Shown here: positions 32,433 to 41,535 of the stretch, one piece after another
Position numbering within the stretch: the stretch's first letter is position 1
How the letters are laid out: each line of letters begins with the position of its first letter
Assembly (NCBI GenBank): GCA_947176295.1
Contig: CAMWQB010000006.1
Coordinates: forward strand, 1-47,024
DNA length: 47,024 nt
DNA from: an uncultured Porphyromonadaceae bacterium
GTDB lineage: Bacteria > Bacteroidota > Bacteroidia > Bacteroidales > Muribaculaceae
Direction: 5' to 3'
Translations under genes and position numbers: made by a program
The notes under the pieces: generated by a model
Databases searched by the model: none
Seen by the model: only the letters and a program-made list of their open reading frames with translations
What the model was told of the DNA's origin: nothing

Positions 32433-32436
32433 CGAG

Positions 32437-32511
<75 letters not shown>

Positions 32512-33540: not shown

Positions 33541-33588
33541 AAAGACAAACGCCCGGGATGACCTGAATTATCCCGGGCGTTTGTCTTT
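33541..33588. terminator. Bidirectional terminator
   Basis: A perfect 19-base stem (AAAGACAAACGCCCGGGAT with its complement at 33570-33588) and a 10-base loop separate two convergent genes: the DUF3298-like gene (+) and the last gene of the CHAT operon (-). T-rich ends occur on both strands. Confidence 0.9.
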
Positions 33589-33606: not shown

Positions 33607-34827
33607 TTACTTCATCAGCTTGTAATGCTTAAGGCCGGTCGTCAGCACGGTCTTATAAGAATTCTTCACGATATTCATGCCCTGCTGGTTCCAAAGAGTT
33701 TCGAAATATTCGCGCACCTCGCTGCTTCGGTTCTGCATCTTGCGCATCCGCGAATAGTCTTCGCGCCATTTCCGGGCCTTTTCGCTGTCGGGGTCGAAGG
33801 AGCATTGCTCCTTCACCTTCACCTTAATATTATACTCGCCCGTCCCCCACATGCGCTTGCCGTTGTCCAGGGGCATGAACGACCGCGGCACCACGAAACA
33901 TTCGCCCTCGACGTTCACAAGGTTTCGGGCCAGATAAGCAGCCCTCTCACTCTCGGGAAGGCGTTCCGCATCGGCGAGGACCTCATTGCGCGAATAGGTG
34001 TAGCGCGTAACATTATCGGGAATATTCACGGACAGGCGGAAGTTGCCGAGCTCCACATCGCGGTGAACCTGCACAGCCTCGTTTATCCACGACGAAGACA
34101 AGTCGAAGTCGATGCCCACGCGGAGATTTTCGCGGTCGTCGAATGAGAAACCGTTGCCTCCGGGGCGCAGGATAGTGTCGCCGGCTACGGTCGCCTTTCC
34201 TTTTTTGAGCTCCTTCATGACGCGGATGCCGTTGGCGGCAACATTAGGCAGGTGGCACGAATAGGGATAGAAGGCCAGAGTGTCGAGCACCAGATTGAAT
34301 TTGCTGTGGCGGAAGAGATTGTCCAGCCGCGAGCGGTCGATGCTGCACGACATGTAGATTACCTCCCGGCCGTTGCGCATCCCTCGGATTTCTATGCCGT
34401 TGAAGTTTATGTCCGACGGGTCGAGGGCCCCCAGCTCCGAGTTCTTGGCGTAGAAGTCCTTCAGGCCCTTTATGCTTGTGATGCTGTCGGTGTAGTTGTT
34501 TTCGCGCTCGATCATCTCCATCCACTCCTTCTTCTGACGCTGACGCATCTTTGCAAGATTGATAGTCTCAGACACCAACACGTCCACTGCGCCACCCACA
34601 AGGCCGAAGCCTACGGCCTGCCCTATTTCGGCGAGCACACCGCGGTCGTCGGCCGTGCCATTGAGTTCGCGCATTGTCGAAGATATGCGCTCCCGCATGT
34701 GGGGATCCATCTCCTTGACCGAAACCTCCCACGAGTCGACCTCCTGTGAGGCCTGCGCCCTCATCGGAACAACCGGAAGGGCAAGCGCCAGGCCAAGCAA
34801 GACGGCCGTAATTTTGTTCTGTATCAT
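33607..34827 (-). CDS. Exported protein of the CHAT operon, unknown family
   Basis: Predicted protein of 406 residues that I do not recognise. A signal peptide (1-26, ALALPVVPMRAQA) is followed by a helical region with a Gly-rich hydrophobic stretch, IGQAVGFGLVGGAVDVLV (68-85), then a charged helix. Residues about 130-330 look beta-rich, and the end is again helical and basic. It is the last gene of the operon, 23 bases after the CHAT gene. The hydrophobic Gly-rich stretch could insert into a membrane or pack in a core. Being exported alongside two proteases, it might be a substrate, an effector or a partner; this is inference. Confidence 0.7.
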   Translation of the reverse strand: MIQNKITAVLLGLALALPVVPMRAQASQEVDSWEVSVKEMDPHMRERISSTMRELNGTADDRGVLAEIGQAVGFGLVGGAVDVLVSETINLAKMRQRQKKEWMEMIERENNYTDSITSIKGLKDFYAKNSELGALDPSDINFNGIEIRGMRNGREVIYMSCSIDRSRLDNLFRHSKFNLVLDTLAFYPYSCHLPNVAANGIRVMKELKKGKATVAGDTILRPGGNGFSFDDRENLRVGIDFDLSSSWINEAVQVHRDVELGNFRLSVNIPDNVTRYTYSRNEVLADAERLPESERAAYLARNLVNVEGECFVVPRSFMPLDNGKRMWGTGEYNIKVKVKEQCSFDPDSEKARKWREDYSRMRKMQNRSSEVREYFETLWNQQGMNIVKNSYKTVLTTGLKHYKLMK

Positions 34828-34850
34828 ATATATTCGAAAATTATTGATTT

Positions 34851-37055
34851 TTAATCTATTGCATCAATGAGGATAAAAGCGTCGGTGTATTGAGGAAAAT
34901 CATAATCCGGAATCTCGTCCATAGTCATGACCTCGCCTGCCATAGTGGCGGGATTGAAAAAGTATGTTCCGGCCGGGGTGCTGATGTTATGAGCCTCGAC
35001 TGAATAGGCTCCGCTTTTGAGATCCTCGCGGGCCCCACGGAATGCGGCTCTCATACTCTCGCCCTCGTTCATCCTGCGGTAAAAAGCCGTCATCAAGCGG
35101 GCCGTGGCATCAGATTGTACGCTCCACAAGCTCACGAGCATGGCTCCCGCACCTGCATTCTTAAGTCCGCGCTGCAGGCCGTACACCCCGTCAGCTCCAA
35201 CCTCGCCGAGACCCGTCTGGCACGCCGACATCGTGAAGAGCTTGCATCGCGAAAGGTCCAGCCCCGAGAGCTCGCGGGCCGACACGAGGCCATCGTAATG
35301 GGTGCGGGCAATGCTGCCGTACTCGTCCATGCATGGGTTCACACCGGTAAAACTTATCACGGTCGACGACAGTGCATCATCGCAAACGGCAGGCTTGAGG
35401 TCCGTGGAATAGTCGCCGTGCTTGTTGGCCGAAAGCGACACCCCGTGTGTGCTGATGAGAATCGACGGGAAATTCCCGGCGAGCCGGCGAAAACTGCCTT
35501 CCGTGGCAAAAATGCCTCTCATCCTCGCGTCCGAGGGGTTGTCGCGCAGGCGCGCTATGGCCCGAGATTCGTCGGTCTCCGCGCTGAGAATTGGGAACTT
35601 ATAGTAGTTGAACGCCAGATATGCGTCGTAGTCGTTGTAAGCACATTCCTCCGGTGTCGGGGTGTAGTCGTAGTCGATGTCGCCGTAAAGGAGCATGGCG
35701 TCCTCAGCCTTCAGCGAGCGATCGGCGCGTCCGCGGTCCATAAGGCGTCGCGTCGACGTGAGGCGCCGGGCCTCCGGTCCATCTCCAGGCAGGAGATATT
35801 CCACAGCCAGAGTATGATAGCGGCCGTCAGGAGCAAAGAATATTGTCTTGGCCCCATTCAAAGCGTCCATCAGGGTAGGGCTCCAGACCATCCCCGGCAA
35901 CTTAGGGTCGCTGTACACGCGGTCTTTTGTCTTGCGCAAGCCGTCGTCGATCAGCGGGCCGAAACGTTTTTCAAGAAGCGTTGGCGAAGGCTGCTGCACC
36001 CACACGGGCTTTTTGCCCGGCAGGAGCAACAGGGCACCCATAGCCTGCTCCTCGCTCCCGAAAGGCGTGTACTGCACAAACTCCACGGCAGCCTCTCCGG
36101 GCTTGAGTTTCTTCCGAATATCTTTCCACGTCAGCGAAAGCTCTTCGAGATTGCGGCGCGTGGGGCGGCCCTCGCTGTCGGTGGCGGCATCAAGCTGCAT
36201 AAGCAGTCCTTTGGCAAAGAGAGTCAAGTCGTAAAGAAATTCCGGATCCGCATCCTCAAGAGCGTATGCATCGGCAACGAAGGGGCGGAGCATCATCCAA
36301 TACTCCTCGCGTCCTTTCGAATTCATGCCGGCGAAGCGTTCAAGCGCATCAGCCTTCTGGAGAGCGAAATATTCCTTGTAAGCTTTCAGAGCCTCGCGTC
36401 GGTCGACTCCTGTGAGACCGAGAATTTTGGCATACATCCGTCGGCCGCGGCCATAATCGAGGCTTTTCTTGTCCTTGAAAGTCGAAAGTGCTTCCTCCGC
36501 CTCCCTGCGGGCCTCCTCGTCATTGCCGAGACGTGCGTTGATAATGGCCCTTTGGAGCAGAACGGAATTCCACTCCGTGTCGCCCGGCTCATAAATTCCC
36601 GTCGTATCGTAATACTCCAGGACAGCATTTATGCAACCCAGAGCGTCGTCATAGCGCTTTTGTTTGTAATACAGCTGCGCCAGCTCCAGATCTATGAGCG
36701 CTCCGGTCGAGAATCTCTGCGCATCCATCTCCTTGGCATCCATGTAAAGCCGCTCGGCAAGCTCGAGTTGGTCGGCATTCCCGGTGGCGCACCCTTCAAG
36801 ATAGTTCATGTTTCCTTCGAGCTTGCGCAGCGATGCGCCATACGACATATATTCATCGTCGTCAAGGCTCCAAAGCTCTCTTAGCATCATGTAGCCTTCG
36901 CCTACCACCTCGTCAATCCTTAGCTGTTGACCGAGAAGATACGCGCGGTTGCCTTCGCTGATGAGGCTGTCGAGTTCGGCAGTCGAAGCTGCCCGAACAG
37001 ACCCACCGCTCACAAGCATCGCAAGGGCAATAACAATCCGTCCGGTCAGTTTCAT
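34851..37055 (-). CDS. Exported TPR-CHAT caspase-like protease
   Basis: Predicted protein of 734 residues. A signal peptide (1-23, ending VRAAS) exports it. Residues about 30-240 are TPR-like helices (e.g. ALIDLELAQLYYKQKRYDDA). The C-terminal CHAT domain (about 400-700) is a clan CD, caspase-like peptidase domain with both catalytic residues: His 537 in ILISTHGVSL and Cys 612 in FTMSACQTGLGEV, followed by LVSLWSV and a ..SM..AFRGAREDL.. helix, all family signatures. Well-studied TPR-CHAT proteases (Craspase, gasdermin-activating) act in the cytosol, so the signal peptide is notable. ATG overlaps the stop of the upstream gene by four bases. Confidence 0.9.
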   Translation of the reverse strand: MKLTGRIVIALAMLVSGGSVRAASTAELDSLISEGNRAYLLGQQLRIDEVVGEGYMMLRELWSLDDDEYMSYGASLRKLEGNMNYLEGCATGNADQLELAERLYMDAKEMDAQRFSTGALIDLELAQLYYKQKRYDDALGCINAVLEYYDTTGIYEPGDTEWNSVLLQRAIINARLGNDEEARREAEEALSTFKDKKSLDYGRGRRMYAKILGLTGVDRREALKAYKEYFALQKADALERFAGMNSKGREEYWMMLRPFVADAYALEDADPEFLYDLTLFAKGLLMQLDAATDSEGRPTRRNLEELSLTWKDIRKKLKPGEAAVEFVQYTPFGSEEQAMGALLLLPGKKPVWVQQPSPTLLEKRFGPLIDDGLRKTKDRVYSDPKLPGMVWSPTLMDALNGAKTIFFAPDGRYHTLAVEYLLPGDGPEARRLTSTRRLMDRGRADRSLKAEDAMLLYGDIDYDYTPTPEECAYNDYDAYLAFNYYKFPILSAETDESRAIARLRDNPSDARMRGIFATEGSFRRLAGNFPSILISTHGVSLSANKHGDYSTDLKPAVCDDALSSTVISFTGVNPCMDEYGSIARTHYDGLVSARELSGLDLSRCKLFTMSACQTGLGEVGADGVYGLQRGLKNAGAGAMLVSLWSVQSDATARLMTAFYRRMNEGESMRAAFRGAREDLKSGAYSVEAHNISTPAGTYFFNPATMAGEVMTMDEIPDYDFPQYTDAFILIDAID

Positions 37056-37669
37056 TTGCGGGAATTGAAATTAAATATTGCAAGCGAGCGGGGCTTGTCG
37101 GTGCCGTTGGCAACGCGAATCTTGACAGTCTGCCCCTCTGCTACGCTTCCTGTGAAAATATACGCATCCTTTTCTATAGTCTTAGTCATGACCTTCCCTC
37201 CGGCACTCACACTCACATCGAGTCCGGCAGACTTCAGCCCGTCGTAAGGCATTATCACGATACACTGCGAGCCCGAGCGACCTTTCAGCGTGTATTCGAG
37301 CGTCGACCCCGCCTTCACCCCACGCTCATAAAGCGAGTAGTTGAAGTGCGGATTCTCGCCATTGAGCATATTGCCGGTCGAGGTCTCGAACCGGCGCTTC
37401 TGCTCGGCGGCGGCAAGAAGCTTGTTGAGCCGGAAGCCTGCCACGCGGTCCGACGCGCGGCACTCCGCCTTGGGGTCGGCAGCCTTCAGTTCGTTCATCG
37501 GGGTCCAGCTCTTGTCAGCCCCGAGCTTCTCGGCGGCGGCTTCAAAAGCCTTCTGGCCTCCGGACTTAAGACTGCGCACGGCATCCATCATGGCCGTGAG
37601 CGTGGCGTCCTGAGCCGAGGCGGCGATGCACGAAAAAATTATACAGACAACAAAAGCAAGTCTTTTCAT
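37052..37669 (-). CDS. Small exported protein of the CHAT operon
   Basis: Predicted protein of 205 residues from ATG 37669, which gives a clean signal peptide (MKRLAFVVCIIFSCIAASAQ). A longer frame upstream adds only MNSQTCSK. Residues about 22-110 are helical and charged; residues about 115-205 (NYSLYERGVKAGSTLEYTLK, then VKIRVANGTDKPRSLAIF) look like a small beta-sandwich. I know no family for it. Its stop overlaps the CHAT protease start, so the two are probably made in fixed ratio and may bind each other in the periplasm. Confidence 0.7.
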   Translation of the reverse strand: MKRLAFVVCIIFSCIAASAQDATLTAMMDAVRSLKSGGQKAFEAAAEKLGADKSWTPMNELKAADPKAECRASDRVAGFRLNKLLAAAEQKRRFETSTGNMLNGENPHFNYSLYERGVKAGSTLEYTLKGRSGSQCIVIMPYDGLKSAGLDVSVSAGGKVMTKTIEKDAYIFTGSVAEGQTVKIRVANGTDKPRSLAIFNFNSRK

Positions 37670-37702
37670 TTTGGAACATGTTTGAGAATTCAAAAGAAAG
37701 CA

Positions 37703-38353
37703 TCAGTCCATCTTCTCGGGCCATAGGGCATCAAGTGTGTCGGGAGTGGCCCTTGTGATTGTGCTGCTCTTCTTCAAAGGCCGCACATTGGTTTCCGGTC
37801 TCTCGAGCCTTTCGATGGCACGGCATGCAATTTCATTTATCTCTTTGACTTCAGGGCGCTCCGATGGTTTAAAACTTAGACAGCGTCTCACAAGGGCTGA
37901 AAGCTCGGGAGCATTCCGACGCATTACCGGCACGGGTGTGCCGGCCCCTTGGTAGCGTCCGCCGCAGCCTTGAAACACCCCGCATCCCAAAAAGAGGAAA
38001 AAAACCGATGCGCCTAATGCCCACACAGGCTCATAGCCCTCCGGGGCCGTATATGCACTGTCCTTGCTTTTGCTCCAGGGATTGAGACAAAAGCGGCCTT
38101 CGCCTTTTATCATAATATGCGCGGGCTCCACAGGAACTCTCACGCCCGCGGCAAGCTCCGCCGCCACGTCGCGCAAAATCTGCCACGCCGTCAGCTCCGA
38201 CGTCTCGCCCGCAAGGGCCGATGTGTCGCGTTCAGGGAAGTACTCTTCCCGTCGTTTTTCCCCTGAGACAGACGTTTTCACAGCCTCGAGCAAGCCGTCG
38301 GCCCCGCGCTCGACGGAAATGGTGTAGAGCGGGCCCCTATGGATGGTCTTCAT
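37703..38353 (-). CDS. Minimal pseudokinase-like protein
   Basis: Predicted protein of 216 residues. Its second half follows the C-lobe of Ser/Thr kinases: an APE motif (103-105), WALGASVFFLFLG (111-123) in the place of D-W-x-L-G, and LVRRCLSFKPSERPEV (154-169) with the conserved late Arg. The catalytic parts are lost: PVEPAHIMI (74-81) replaces HRDxKxxNI and NPW (91-93) replaces DFG. The N-lobe is reduced to about 65 residues, with Lys 26 in EAVKT possibly equal to the beta-3 Lys; no Gly-rich loop is visible. It should not phosphorylate, but may bind a ligand or regulate a partner. It overlaps the FHA-protease gene by 17 bases. Confidence 0.65.
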   Translation of the reverse strand: MKTIHRGPLYTISVERGADGLLEAVKTSVSGEKRREEYFPERDTSALAGETSELTAWQILRDVAAELAAGVRVPVEPAHIMIKGEGRFCLNPWSKSKDSAYTAPEGYEPVWALGASVFFLFLGCGVFQGCGGRYQGAGTPVPVMRRNAPELSALVRRCLSFKPSERPEVKEINEIACRAIERLERPETNVRPLKKSSTITRATPDTLDALWPEKMD

Positions 38354-39656
38354 TGTTTTTCGGAATTGCGGTGGTAGGAACAGAATAAGAGCGATGGCCG
38401 TTGGTGCGATCCAGGACGGAGATTACACCCACCGCCACAAACCCTTCCGGAGCGGCGTCCGTGCGCATCAGCACCGGGCCTCCGGAATATCCGGGCGAAA
38501 GGCGCCCTCCGTGGGCCAGCATCATGAATCCTTCATCCTCGCCCTCGGGCCGTGCAAGGGGCTGCCGGAGGAAATCGCTTTCGAGCTCGGCTGTCTCGTC
38601 GCGTCCCTGCGTGAGCGGAAAACCGAGAAAACTCAGTGTCCGACGAGGCTTCAGCTCGCTTTCCATGAGCGTGCGGTCGGCAAGCCTTATGCATCCTGCG
38701 GTGTCCATCCTGCAGGCCACGGCATCGCCGAGCATCACCTCGCCACGGTCGTAGCGGGCCTGGATGTTGCGCCAATAGAAATCCTCTTCCCAGCTGCCGC
38801 ACTCAATAATTTCATCTCTGCTGCGGTCGAACATAAAATCCGTCGAGCGCAGGCGCATGCTTGTCCCTGAGGCGTCGGTCAGAATCATCGAACTTACAAG
38901 CTTCGGGAGGGGATCTTCATCGCCGGCAAGCTGGGCCGCGGTCTCGGCGCGCAGCGCGAGCTGCACGGAGGCATCTGTGTTCGACAATATGTCGGGAATT
39001 TCTGCTGCAGTGAGCGCGTTGAGCCAAGGCTCTACACAGTGGCGCGCCGTTACGAGCAGCGAATCGGTGGTCAGGAAGGCCGTGCCCGAGCGAGGCGAAG
39101 CATACTCATAGGCGTCCACAAGCGAATCGCCCTCGAAATACAGCAGCGAATCCACTTCTATCCTGTAGAGCGAACTCATCGCCGAAGCCACCATCGGCTC
39201 GGCCAGCTCGTCTCTGTCGCTCATTTTCACAACCCACCACACTATTCCCGCCACCATCATGGCCATAGCTGCAGCCAGCACCCCCACCCCACGGCGGCTG
39301 AGACCTGTATGCACTTTCGTTTCGCCCGGCTCGGGCCCTTCATGAAGGCGGAACCTGAAATGGGGCTCAAGCCCGGCCACCTCCACGGCATCCTTGTCCG
39401 AGAGGTAGCACACATGGCCCACATCCTTGCCGTTCACTGCCACCGGATAGTCCCTTCCGAGCCTCAACAGGCGCCACTCTCCGGGCCCGCAAGGCTCGAT
39501 TCGAGCCACGTTCACGTCCTCGTATGGCCCGGGATTCGAGAGCCTGACATCAGCATCGGACTTCTGACCGATCACCACAGTCTTACCTCTCCCCGGCGTG
39601 AATATCCTTCCGTCGGAAAGATTCAGCGAATAGTGCACCTGTCTGTCATCATTCAT
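38337..39656 (-). CDS. FHA-like/transmembrane/trypsin-like serine protease
   Basis: Predicted protein of 439 residues in three parts. Residues 1-105 resemble an FHA domain (VVIGQKSDADVRLS, later VNGKDVG), but the phosphothreonine-binding Arg and Ser-x-x-His are not conserved. One membrane helix spans about 123-143, with RR before and DRDE after it, which predicts an N-terminus in the cytosol. Residues about 155-435 form a trypsin-like protease: His 206 in LVTARHCVEP, probable Asp 311 in GDAVACRM and Ser 391 in SPGYSGGPVL. The protease would be periplasmic. ATG 39656 overlaps the upstream stop (ATGAATGA); ATG 39665 is an alternative start adding three residues. Confidence 0.8.
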   Translation of the reverse strand: MNDDRQVHYSLNLSDGRIFTPGRGKTVVIGQKSDADVRLSNPGPYEDVNVARIEPCGPGEWRLLRLGRDYPVAVNGKDVGHVCYLSDKDAVEVAGLEPHFRFRLHEGPEPGETKVHTGLSRRGVGVLAAAMAMMVAGIVWWVVKMSDRDELAEPMVASAMSSLYRIEVDSLLYFEGDSLVDAYEYASPRSGTAFLTTDSLLVTARHCVEPWLNALTAAEIPDILSNTDASVQLALRAETAAQLAGDEDPLPKLVSSMILTDASGTSMRLRSTDFMFDRSRDEIIECGSWEEDFYWRNIQARYDRGEVMLGDAVACRMDTAGCIRLADRTLMESELKPRRTLSFLGFPLTQGRDETAELESDFLRQPLARPEGEDEGFMMLAHGGRLSPGYSGGPVLMRTDAAPEGFVAVGVISVLDRTNGHRSYSVPTTAIPKNNEDHP

Positions 39657-40812
39657 CGTTCTCATCCGTAAAAGATTTCACTATCAGCGGAATCGCGGCG
39701 ATGAGGTCACTGTCGTAGCGGGCCACGTTCCGTCCCGTCTCATCCTCGCCCAGCTCATCGAAAGCCACGAGGTCGTAATGGGCGTTTCTTTCCTTCTTGT
39801 ATTTCTTTTTCAGGGAAATATCCTTTTCAATTTCCAGGCGTTCGCTGTCTGTGCACGGGCGCGAGCCTTGCAAGAGCCGTTCCACGCTCCACCGGTTGTG
39901 TTCCGTCGGCGTCATCTCCTCGATTTCCGAGGCTGTCAGCGCATAAAAAGTCTGCCAGTCGTCGCGAGAATGCCCGAGAGTGCGCATCTTCGTGGCTATC
40001 GTGAGGATGTTGAACAGATTCGACAGGCGCATCTGCGGGCTCATAACACACTCCCAAGCCTTCTCCACATCCTCGCGGGGCAGCTCGGTGGGCACGTGCT
40101 TAAGCTCGTAGCTCGCGTTATAGAAATAATTCAGATACTTAGCCATATCCATCATCCGCTCAAAGCGTGCATCGATGTCAACCGGAACATCAAACACGCG
40201 GATTCCCGGACAGACCTCATCGCACTTGTCTCCCAATGCAAAAAACTGCACCGGCGGTGCCCCGACGGGATGCCGAGCAAGAGCATGGGAGGCATAGCGC
40301 ATGTTCCTTTCACGGTCGTCTCCGCAAAACACGAGCGTAAGCTGGCGCTCGGGGTCGCTCTCCCATTTTGCAAGCTTCTGCTGGAGAGCCGGGTGAGTGA
40401 AACGGCCGAGCACAAACTCCACCTCTACATCCACAAAATCCTTACGTCGCCCCTCGTACATGGGACGATGCATGTCGATGTCGATATCCTTGTCGCGCAA
40501 GTCCACCGTGCGCCACCGGCAATTGTCGAAAAGCTCGCGGTGCTCATACACAAATTCCTCAACCTCCGGCCGCTCGACGCCGGCCCAGGTGATGCGCGTG
40601 CGCAGGTCGCGACGCCGCTCGTAGTTGGGATAGTGGCATACAAGAATAGCCATCTTCACCCACGCCTCAGCCCACCGGCCCGTGCCGACTACAACAATAT
40701 GCAGGTGGTTGTCCGACGAATATCGCAGTGGCGCGCGGAAATCGAAGGCTGCGGAATCGGGAAACATTCCCGACACAAGGGCGGCTACGGTCTTCTCTTG
40801 GAGTGTAAGCAT
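39649..40812 (-). CDS. Rossmann-RyR domain protein, first gene of the CHAT operon
   Basis: Predicted protein of 387 residues, cytosolic. Residues about 35-230 form a Rossmann-like (TrkA-N type) domain starting LHIVVVGTGRWAEAWV, with G-x-G at 43-45. Residues about 295-355 match the RyR domain: MTPTEHNRWSVERLLQGSRP (300-319), a basic stretch, then NAHYDLVAFDEL (343-354). RyR domains in bacteria have been proposed as nucleotide-ligand sensors in conflict and signalling systems. This is the promoter-proximal gene, so it is likely to be the sensor. It overlaps the FHA-protease gene by 8 bases. Confidence 0.75.
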   Translation of the reverse strand: MLTLQEKTVAALVSGMFPDSAAFDFRAPLRYSSDNHLHIVVVGTGRWAEAWVKMAILVCHYPNYERRRDLRTRITWAGVERPEVEEFVYEHRELFDNCRWRTVDLRDKDIDIDMHRPMYEGRRKDFVDVEVEFVLGRFTHPALQQKLAKWESDPERQLTLVFCGDDRERNMRYASHALARHPVGAPPVQFFALGDKCDEVCPGIRVFDVPVDIDARFERMMDMAKYLNYFYNASYELKHVPTELPREDVEKAWECVMSPQMRLSNLFNILTIATKMRTLGHSRDDWQTFYALTASEIEEMTPTEHNRWSVERLLQGSRPCTDSERLEIEKDISLKKKYKKERNAHYDLVAFDELGEDETGRNVARYDSDLIAAIPLIVKSFTDENDE

Positions 40813-40835
40813 CAGTTTTACTTTTGTCTATGTTA

Positions 40836-40867
40836 CAAAGATAATAATTTTTCAGACCACGCACAAA
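40836..40867 (-). promoter_or_regulatory. Consensus promoter of the six-gene CHAT operon
   Basis: On the minus strand TTTG, 20 bases, TATCTTTG, an exact consensus match. The leader would be about 17-20 bases. No other promoter of this quality is seen before the end of the operon at 33607. Confidence 0.85.
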
Positions 40868-40938: not shown

Positions 40939-41535
40939 ATGGCAACTGAACCCAAAAACCTCAAAGGCACAAAGACGGAGGCCAATCTCGTAACTTCCTA
41001 TCTGGCTGAATCATCGGCCTATACCCGCTATACTTTCTACGCACAGCAGGCAACGAAAGAAAAATATTTCCCCATCGCTCAGGTGTTCAATGAAACCGCA
41101 GCAAACGAACTCCACCATGCCAAGGTTTACTTCAAGTTCCTGCAGGGTGGCCAGGTAACTGTTCCCGTGAGCGCTGACTCGGGCGTAATCGGCACCACCG
41201 CCGAGAATCTTGCATGCGCTGCCGCCGAGGAGCTTTCCGAAGGCGTGGACATGTATAAGGCTTACGCTAAAGTGGCTCAGGAAGAAGGCTTTGACGACAT
41301 CGCAGAACACTTCCTCGCCATCGCCACCATTGAGGAGGCTCACCACAACCGCTTCCTGCGCATGCTCCAGCAGGTAAAGGACGGCACCGTATGGAAACGC
41401 GAAAAGCCCATCACGTGGAAGTGTCTCGTATGCGGCTATGAATACGTTGGCACTGAGCCCCCGGCCGTTTGCCCTGCATGCGACCATCCCCGCGAACACT
41501 ACATCGCCCTGGACGACGCTCAGGAACTCGCATAA
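40939..41535 (+). CDS. rbr: Rubrerythrin
   Basis: Predicted protein of 198 residues. Rubrerythrin reduces hydrogen peroxide in anaerobes. The four-helix diiron domain has the Glu-rich pairs (LAESSAYTRYTFYA, NETAANELHHAKVYFKF, TIEEAHHNRFLRML), and the C-terminal rubredoxin domain has the iron ligands CLVCGYEY and CPACDHP. All ligands appear intact. It is divergent from the CHAT operon across a 126-base spacer and ends at a strong terminator, so it is a single-gene unit. With the Bat operon, it fits an oxygen-sensitive host. Confidence 0.95.
   Translation: MATEPKNLKGTKTEANLVTSYLAESSAYTRYTFYAQQATKEKYFPIAQVFNETAANELHHAKVYFKFLQGGQVTVPVSADSGVIGTTAENLACAAAEELSEGVDMYKAYAKVAQEEGFDDIAEHFLAIATIEEAHHNRFLRMLQQVKDGTVWKREKPITWKCLVCGYEYVGTEPPAVCPACDHPREHYIALDDAQELA

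Follow-up and report, generated by a model that had tools for sequence, protein, structure and literature searches.

In a 47,024-nucleotide stretch of DNA from an uncultured Porphyromonadaceae bacterium (contig CAMWQB010000006.1; the whole stretch is referred to here as the window), reading of the open reading frames (ORFs) revealed six codirectional genes on the minus strand at 33607-40812 which, judged by sequence comparison, are one evolutionary unit. By the same kind of evidence, gene 1 carries a RyR domain keeping the residues that contact cyclic ADP-ribose in a phage protein, genes 2 and 3 are homologues of an FHA-transmembrane (TM)-protease and of a Ser/Thr kinase with the phospho-binding and kinase motifs lost, both proteases of the cassette (trypsin-like and CHAT) keep their catalytic residues, and predicted transmembrane TIR proteins accompany many cassettes. 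We tentatively read the cassette as an accessory, probably protective, trans-envelope signalling system, in which a TIR-made ADP-ribose signal would be read by the RyR domain, passed on by a pseudo-FHA/pseudokinase relay and answered by periplasmic trypsin-like and CHAT proteases; we regard this as quite possible, if still short of probable. Its main rivals are a RyR off-switch and a stress system unrelated to NAD.

Layout and conservation of the cassette

The six same-strand genes listed by a first-pass annotation of this DNA were all recovered, together with the tight spacing it had described. Genes 1 and 2 overlap by 8 bases with the second ATG (39656) as the start of gene 2 and by 17 bases with the first; genes 2 and 3 overlap by 17 bases and genes 4 and 5 by 4 bases, while gaps of 33 and 23 bases separate genes 3 and 4 and genes 5 and 6, respectively. 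The promoter that had been called an exact consensus upstream of gene 1 is also present, and it matches what we take to be the Bacteroidota consensus. It is not unique to the cassette: the pattern TTTG-N19-21-TANNTTTG occurs at 5 sites in the window against 0.16 expected, and none of 100 shuffles reached 5, so that this appears to be a real class of site here.

Using profiles of each gene, built initially on three genomes and later on as many as eight, we observed the same gene order and strand in all 16 loci, the window included (the others being L044 in genome G470, L009/L045 in G128, L010/L046 in G056, L047, L048, L049, L050, L105 in G478, L106 in G523, L107 in G653, L108 in G621, L109 in G685, L110 in G554, L111 in G542 and L064 in G390). 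All six families were present in 12/16 loci; the profile search of the loci did not find family 6 in L048 and L108, and L050 and L105 run into contig ends. The carriers on record are uncultured Bacteroidales, "Porphyromonadaceae" and Prevotella metagenome-assembled genomes, three of them from goat or buffalo foregut, and they span at least two families of the order. The family 4 profile detected relatives in 4/49 genomes of the genus, 11/397 of the family, 3/295 of an order sample (one of which, G262, is weak and was not counted as a cassette) and 1/345 of a phylum sample, this last being the window's own genome. The cassette is rare yet faithfully kept in gut and rumen Bacteroidales.

Between the window and L044, nonsynonymous divergence (dN) was 0.11 to 0.39, with synonymous divergence (dS) too saturated to compute in five genes and at 1.95 in the remaining one, so the whole set looks to be under purifying selection; family 6 is the closest of the six between these loci (84%). 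These results bear on the view that the genes are a decaying or chance cluster without joint function, to which the two domains lacking catalytic or ligand motifs might point. Such a cluster is contradicted by homologues that are collinear rather than scattered across the Bacteroidales, as a gene-order check suggested by the first-pass annotation brought out, by dN values well short of saturated dS and by the retention of the protease and RyR residues described below, and we consider it the least probable explanation of all.

Domains of the six proteins

Pfam matched none of proteins 1, 3 and 6, and protein 4 only below threshold, so that the RyR, FHA-like and pseudokinase labels had to come through relatives. 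All three assignments, made originally from the sequence itself, hold when profiles are compared. The C-terminal domain of protein 1 matched stand-alone RyR ORFs with 96.5% probability and an E value of 7e-10 (hhalign, A12 versus A10), and a profile search of the PDB with this domain returned ryanodine-receptor chains as the best matches, unrelated chains appearing only at E 0.3 and above. Larger homologues of protein 1 in the same bacterial family (670 to 840 residues) carry TM helices and the same C-terminal region, with an RCK-like part in several, and 5 of 14 of them matched PF02026 at E < 0.005, one of these over the cut-off. In a profile combining cassette and large members, the N-terminal part matched Ca-activated K channels, a TrkA-domain channel and CASTOR/DMI1, and the C-terminal part matched RyR repeats. 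The first 170 residues of ten longer cassette copies matched a profile of the RCK side (E 2e-11 to 4e-3).

A May 2026 preprint on the phage protein RyDEP (PMC13232231) assigns the binding or cleavage of cyclic ADP-ribose to four residues, H75, W78, H100 and D117. These align with H305, W308, H345 and D367 of protein 1, and we predict an ADP-ribose pocket at these positions. All four residues were kept in 15/15 cassette copies and in 12/13 large relatives, the exception being L058 with N in place of D. Among 18 aligned RyR domains, only six positions were invariant, and all four pocket residues were among them (about 4e-6 by chance). In the stand-alone RyR ORF at L054:5817, the residues are spaced at +3, +25 and +42, which is the RyDEP spacing.

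The same residues would also suit a RyR off-switch, with protein 1 degrading or soaking up the ADP-ribose signal and thereby restraining a TIR system while the proteases answer another cue. According to the preprint (PMC13232231), RyDEP has glycosidase activity and two homologues work as sponges; protein 1 retains counterparts of both catalytic residues (H305 and D367). However, of the eight RyDEP homologues assayed there, six showed binding but none showed cleavage, so that cleavage does not follow from the residues being kept. Furthermore, protein 1 heads a tight six-gene unit with no TIR gene inside, an arrangement more in keeping with a protein that reads a signal for the proteases than with one that holds back a distant TIR protein. 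We consider the off-switch unlikely, though worth keeping in view.

Stand-alone RyR ORFs of about 95 to 100 residues often adjoin large TM-RCK-RyR-type proteins, sometimes together with TIR or STAND genes, and these neighbours possibly represent a second, uncharacterised RyR system in Bacteroidales.

Proteins 2 and 3 have their relatives in a locus that we call parental (L011-L015, in Bacteroidales), which encodes Ser/Thr kinases, an FHA-TM-trypsin protein, a PP2C and, by look, a zinc-ribbon protein; its domain labels were checked by Pfam in L012 and assigned by look and alignment in the other loci. Protein 2 matched the parental FHA-TM-trypsin protein over its full length (E 9e-24), and protein 3 matched the second kinase of the parental locus (E 4e-23) as well as solved kinases (best E 3e-8), with its orthologue in L047 matching Pfam Pkinase at E 3e-16. 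The residues GR and SRxH define phospho-binding by FHA domains; they were found in 0/14 cassette versus 5/5 parental copies, and the kinase motifs HxD and DFG in 0/14 versus 4/4. The trypsin triad (H209, D314 and S394 in protein 2) was intact in 14/14 cassette and 5/5 parental copies, Trypsin_2 reaching E 4e-4 on the window protein, below the Pfam cut-off. The locus in L012 extends further, with a CHAT-like protein and, by look, one ORF resembling a sigma factor and another resembling a caspase.

The NG turn of the FHA-like part is kept in 12/14 cassette copies, as might be expected under residual phospho-signalling, with kinases elsewhere phosphorylating a partner that the FHA-like domain binds. 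Given that the GR and SRxH residues and the kinase motifs are lost in every copy compared, and that Pfam finds no PP2C among the six proteins, we regard this as very improbable. One branch with 100/100 support separated cassette from parental proteases (14 versus 11 rows) in an unrooted tree, so we infer, rather than read from the tree, that the cassette derives from the parental locus; loss of residues, from parental to cassette, would be the simpler direction.

Protein 5 matched CHAT (PF12770) at E 3e-33 and 115.8 bits against a cut-off of 24, and its dyad of His 537 and Cys 612, described earlier as intact, was kept in 14/14 copies. Proteins 4 to 6 have export-like N-termini, as judged by N-terminal inspection and hydropathy, and they gave no NCBIfam match to the C-terminal sorting domain of the type IX secretion system, a result that holds at NCBIfam sensitivity only. 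A TM segment lies between the FHA-like and trypsin parts in all 7 copies of protein 2 scanned, and the arrangement fits the trans-envelope protease topology proposed initially.

TIR linkage and the proposed pathway

A TIR gene was observed in the stretch examined at 9/16 cassette loci (L009, L047, L048, L049, L064, L107, L108, L109 and L110), L049 being called by likeness to L048 and L108 lying under the Pfam cut-off. The 12 cassette genomes that could be searched whole held 41 TIR_2 matches, and 6 of these genomes had a TIR within 10 kb of the cassette, against 0.40 expected (P 6e-7). In 8/9 linked TIR proteins a TM segment is followed by a further domain, which is FGE-like in L064, L108 and L110 (Pfam), Ig/CarboxypepD-like in L009, L048, L049 and L107 (sub-threshold Pfam match in L009 plus mutual alignment) and unnamed in L047; this domain presumably lies outside. 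A profile built from the Ig-like outer domain of the TIR-TM proteins matched 8/12 cassette genomes versus 2/68 cassette-free ones (P 7e-7), or 6/10 versus 2/68 when the two genomes that had supplied the profile were left out (P 2e-5), and inside the genus it matched 4/4 versus 1/45; all these TIR statistics overstate independence, since the counts include related genomes (5/12 from one genus and 4 from another). The window's own genome carries such a TIR-TM outer-domain protein on a different contig (L175:197-1312). In a second sample, taken across the order, TIR was found within 1.5 kb of 4/30 RyR loci, compared with 0/29 and 0/10 in two control sets. Large RyR-family members lie near the cassette in seven loci (L047, L048, L049, L108, L109, L110 and L111), of which L047, L048 and L049 had helped to build the large-RyR profile; Pfam finds RyR in L047 and L049.

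Two further arrangements were seen around these genes. In two loci (L110:15893-17773 and L108:16771-18660), the linked TIR-FGE gene is followed by another CHAT-like protein, which is shorter and has an export-like N-terminus. Directly upstream of the cassette, L109:55-5420 encodes a large RyR-family protein and a SIR2-TIR protein, together with an nSTAND protein that ends in a glycosyl hydrolase family 25 domain.

The pathway that we propose would begin with a triggered TIR protein, often single-pass with an Ig-like or FGE-like outside domain, making an ADP-ribose-type signal from cytosolic NAD. The RyR domain of protein 1 would bind this signal, or bind and finally hydrolyse it, and the bound protein would then dock on the pseudo-FHA domain and the pseudokinase, which may replace phosphorylation by serving as fixed protein-protein relays. 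The change could be transmitted through the TM helix of protein 2 to the outer trypsin-like protease, which would cut and so activate the periplasmic TPR-CHAT protease. CHAT might in turn process the exported 406- or 205-residue protein or other envelope targets, leading to envelope damage or remodelling. The order of the steps after RyR binding is our inference; the open frame that joins the pseudokinase and family 4 in 3 loci supports the relay idea. The simplest account would thus be a TIR-signal-driven, phosphorylation-free version of the FHA-protease pathway that ends in periplasmic CHAT proteolysis. A more specific form, a two-protease cascade gated by cyclic ADP-ribose and running from a periplasm-sensing TM TIR receptor through the RyR reader and the dead kinase/FHA relay to the trypsin-like and caspase-like (CHAT) proteases, seems to us rather unlikely as a whole.

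The first-pass annotation had assigned sensing to the RyR protein and the pseudokinase together. The RyR domain stands as the candidate sensor, but the pseudokinase is better read as a relay. Its overall interpretation is partly supported; it had missed the kinship with a phospho-signalling locus whose chemistry was lost, the kept ADP-ribose pocket residues and the linked transmembrane TIR proteins.

Besides the way in which export was judged and the relatedness of the genomes counted, several observations weigh against the pathway. PF02026 misses protein 1 and the cassette orthologues scanned, and the RyR profile match was not significant with seven cassette copies alone. In protein 1, H345 and D367 lie at +40 and +62 from H305, with a longer loop from W308 to H345 than RyDEP has, and the pocket is therefore put forward from alignment; the stand-alone RyR ORF at L009:6218, beside one cassette, is without the third pocket residue. 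No TIR was found in the stretch examined at 7/16 loci, the window included (L050 by ORFs only), and G523, which is 94% complete, has no TIR_2 match in its whole genome, so any TIR partner must act from elsewhere or be replaceable. In G621, the counted TIR (C12:7331) is about 8 kb off, the nearer TIR-FGE protein being under the Pfam cut-off. By genus, the TIR-TM outer domain occurs in the cassette genomes of 2/5 genera. PADLOC reported no defence family of note among the six proteins, viral contigs gave no relative of family 4, and phage records gave none of protein 1.

The absence of TIR from those seven stretches would suit envelope-stress or redox proteolysis without NAD signalling. The pseudo-FHA/pseudokinase scaffold would then read a protein partner or the membrane state, and the RyR/Rossmann protein would sense some other metabolite, for example an adenine nucleotide; both Rossmann and RyR folds bind adenine nucleotides. 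This explanation is kept alive by rubrerythrin-type genes, which adjoin the cassette in the window (40939-41535), L044 and L010 (L010:13704-14317) and also the parental locus in L011 (L011:3227-3778); the label was checked by Pfam for the window gene only and given by look in the others. Set against it are the TIR proximity and co-occurrence statistics and a patchy distribution (11 of 397 family genomes) that is unlike that of a housekeeping stress system. We consider it a serious but on the whole unlikely alternative.

If the TIR-driven pathway is true, it would be a bacterial pathway uniting TIR, RyR (kin of the ryanodine-receptor R12 repeat) and caspase-like logic, and one in which a complete phospho-relay was converted to a phosphorylation-free scaffold. 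The cassette would then offer a defined genetic unit for asking whether host, rather than phage, RyR domains read TIR-made ADP-ribose signals, how a cytosolic nucleotide alarm could become proteolysis beyond the inner membrane, and how a kinase/FHA pathway might keep working without phospho-writing and phospho-reading.

The features are collected in Table 1. Beyond the DUF3298-like gene, a tRNA-His gene lies at 32436-32510 of the window, about 1.1 kb off the end of the cassette. A small exported-looking protein of about 225 residues recurs at the cassette edge in four loci (by look).

Table 1. Features of the cassette and of related loci (window positions unless a locus is given; pLDDT, predicted local distance difference test)
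Feature	Position	Strand	Basis
Family 1, 387 aa, no TM found: Rossmann-like part and C-terminal RyR (R12) domain	39649..40812	-	profile comparison
Family 2, 442 aa: degenerate FHA inside, TM at about 127-145, trypsin-like protease outside	38337..39665	-	profile comparison, residue table
Family 3, 216 aa: pseudokinase retaining the C-lobe but not the N-lobe or the catalytic motifs; WPEEM-like tail	37703..38353	-	profile comparison
Family 4, 205 aa: export-type N-terminus, helical region, C-terminal beta-sandwich	37052..37669	-	inspection; model pLDDT 73
Family 5, 734 aa: predicted exported TPR-CHAT protease, H537 and C612	34851..37055	-	Pfam CHAT; export from N-terminus inspection
Family 6, 406 aa: predicted exported protein, no fold assigned	33607..34827	-	N-terminus inspection; low-confidence model
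Bacteroidota-type promoter TTTG-N20-TATCTTTG before gene 1	40836..40867	-	sequence reading; pattern scan
Perfect 19-nt inverted repeat between convergent ends of family 6 and a DUF3298-like gene; possible shared terminator	33541..33588	.	
Copies of the edge protein of about 225 aa	L107:14909-15577, L108:4827-5528, L048:11513-12187, L049:14294-14971		by look
Stand-alone RyR ORFs	L054:5817-6101, L059:8778-9077, L060:8471-8773, L134-L163		

Comparison with known systems

In the open-licence literature, outside which most subscription papers lie, we found no described system with this gene set, in agreement with the first-pass annotation, and no description of the parental kinase/FHA-TM-trypsin/PP2C locus. 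The cassette shares with the parental locus a homologous full-length FHA-protease and kinase, with the protease placed before the kinase in relative order, and in L012 the CHAT-like protein downstream matches protein 5 by BLAST at E 7e-17 and looks export-like. In contrast to the cassette, the parental locus keeps the FHA motif, all kinase motifs, the PP2C and the zinc-ribbon protein (by look), has no match to family 1 and has no detected counterpart of family 4 or family 6.

Phage RyDEP (PF02026; PMC13232231) likewise has an RyR (R12) domain with four residues contacting cyclic ADP-ribose. However, RyDEP is a phage evasion protein, whereas the cassette RyR domain belongs to a host protein, follows a Rossmann-like part and stands at the head of a protease operon. 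As in Thoeris (TIR plus ThsA), a TIR protein appears tied to a reader with a putative ADP-ribose pocket, and several linked TIR proteins gave weak matches to ThsB models; we use this as a working analogy only. PADLOC gave no ThsA-like match among the six proteins, ThsA not having been searched for in the genomes. The TIR proteins here differ in being often transmembrane and unlinked, and the outputs would be extracytoplasmic proteases.

The conflict systems built around peptidases that Kaur et al. described in 2020/2021 (PMC7159879, PMC8195603) also bring together trypsin-like and caspase-superfamily peptidases and modules of the TIR, kinase or FHA type. In contrast, the six cassette proteins are without an NTPase or vWA domain by Pfam, and neither paper contains the word RyR. 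The kinship with RCK-gated channels and CASTOR/DMI1-type proteins lies in the large relatives of protein 1, which carry TM and RCK-like parts before the Rossmann-RyR region; protein 1 itself is without the TM part and the first RCK, of which the longer cassette copies keep a remnant. The parts of the cassette are of kinds known from conflict systems, and the mechanism would be distinctly novel if the proposed pathway holds.

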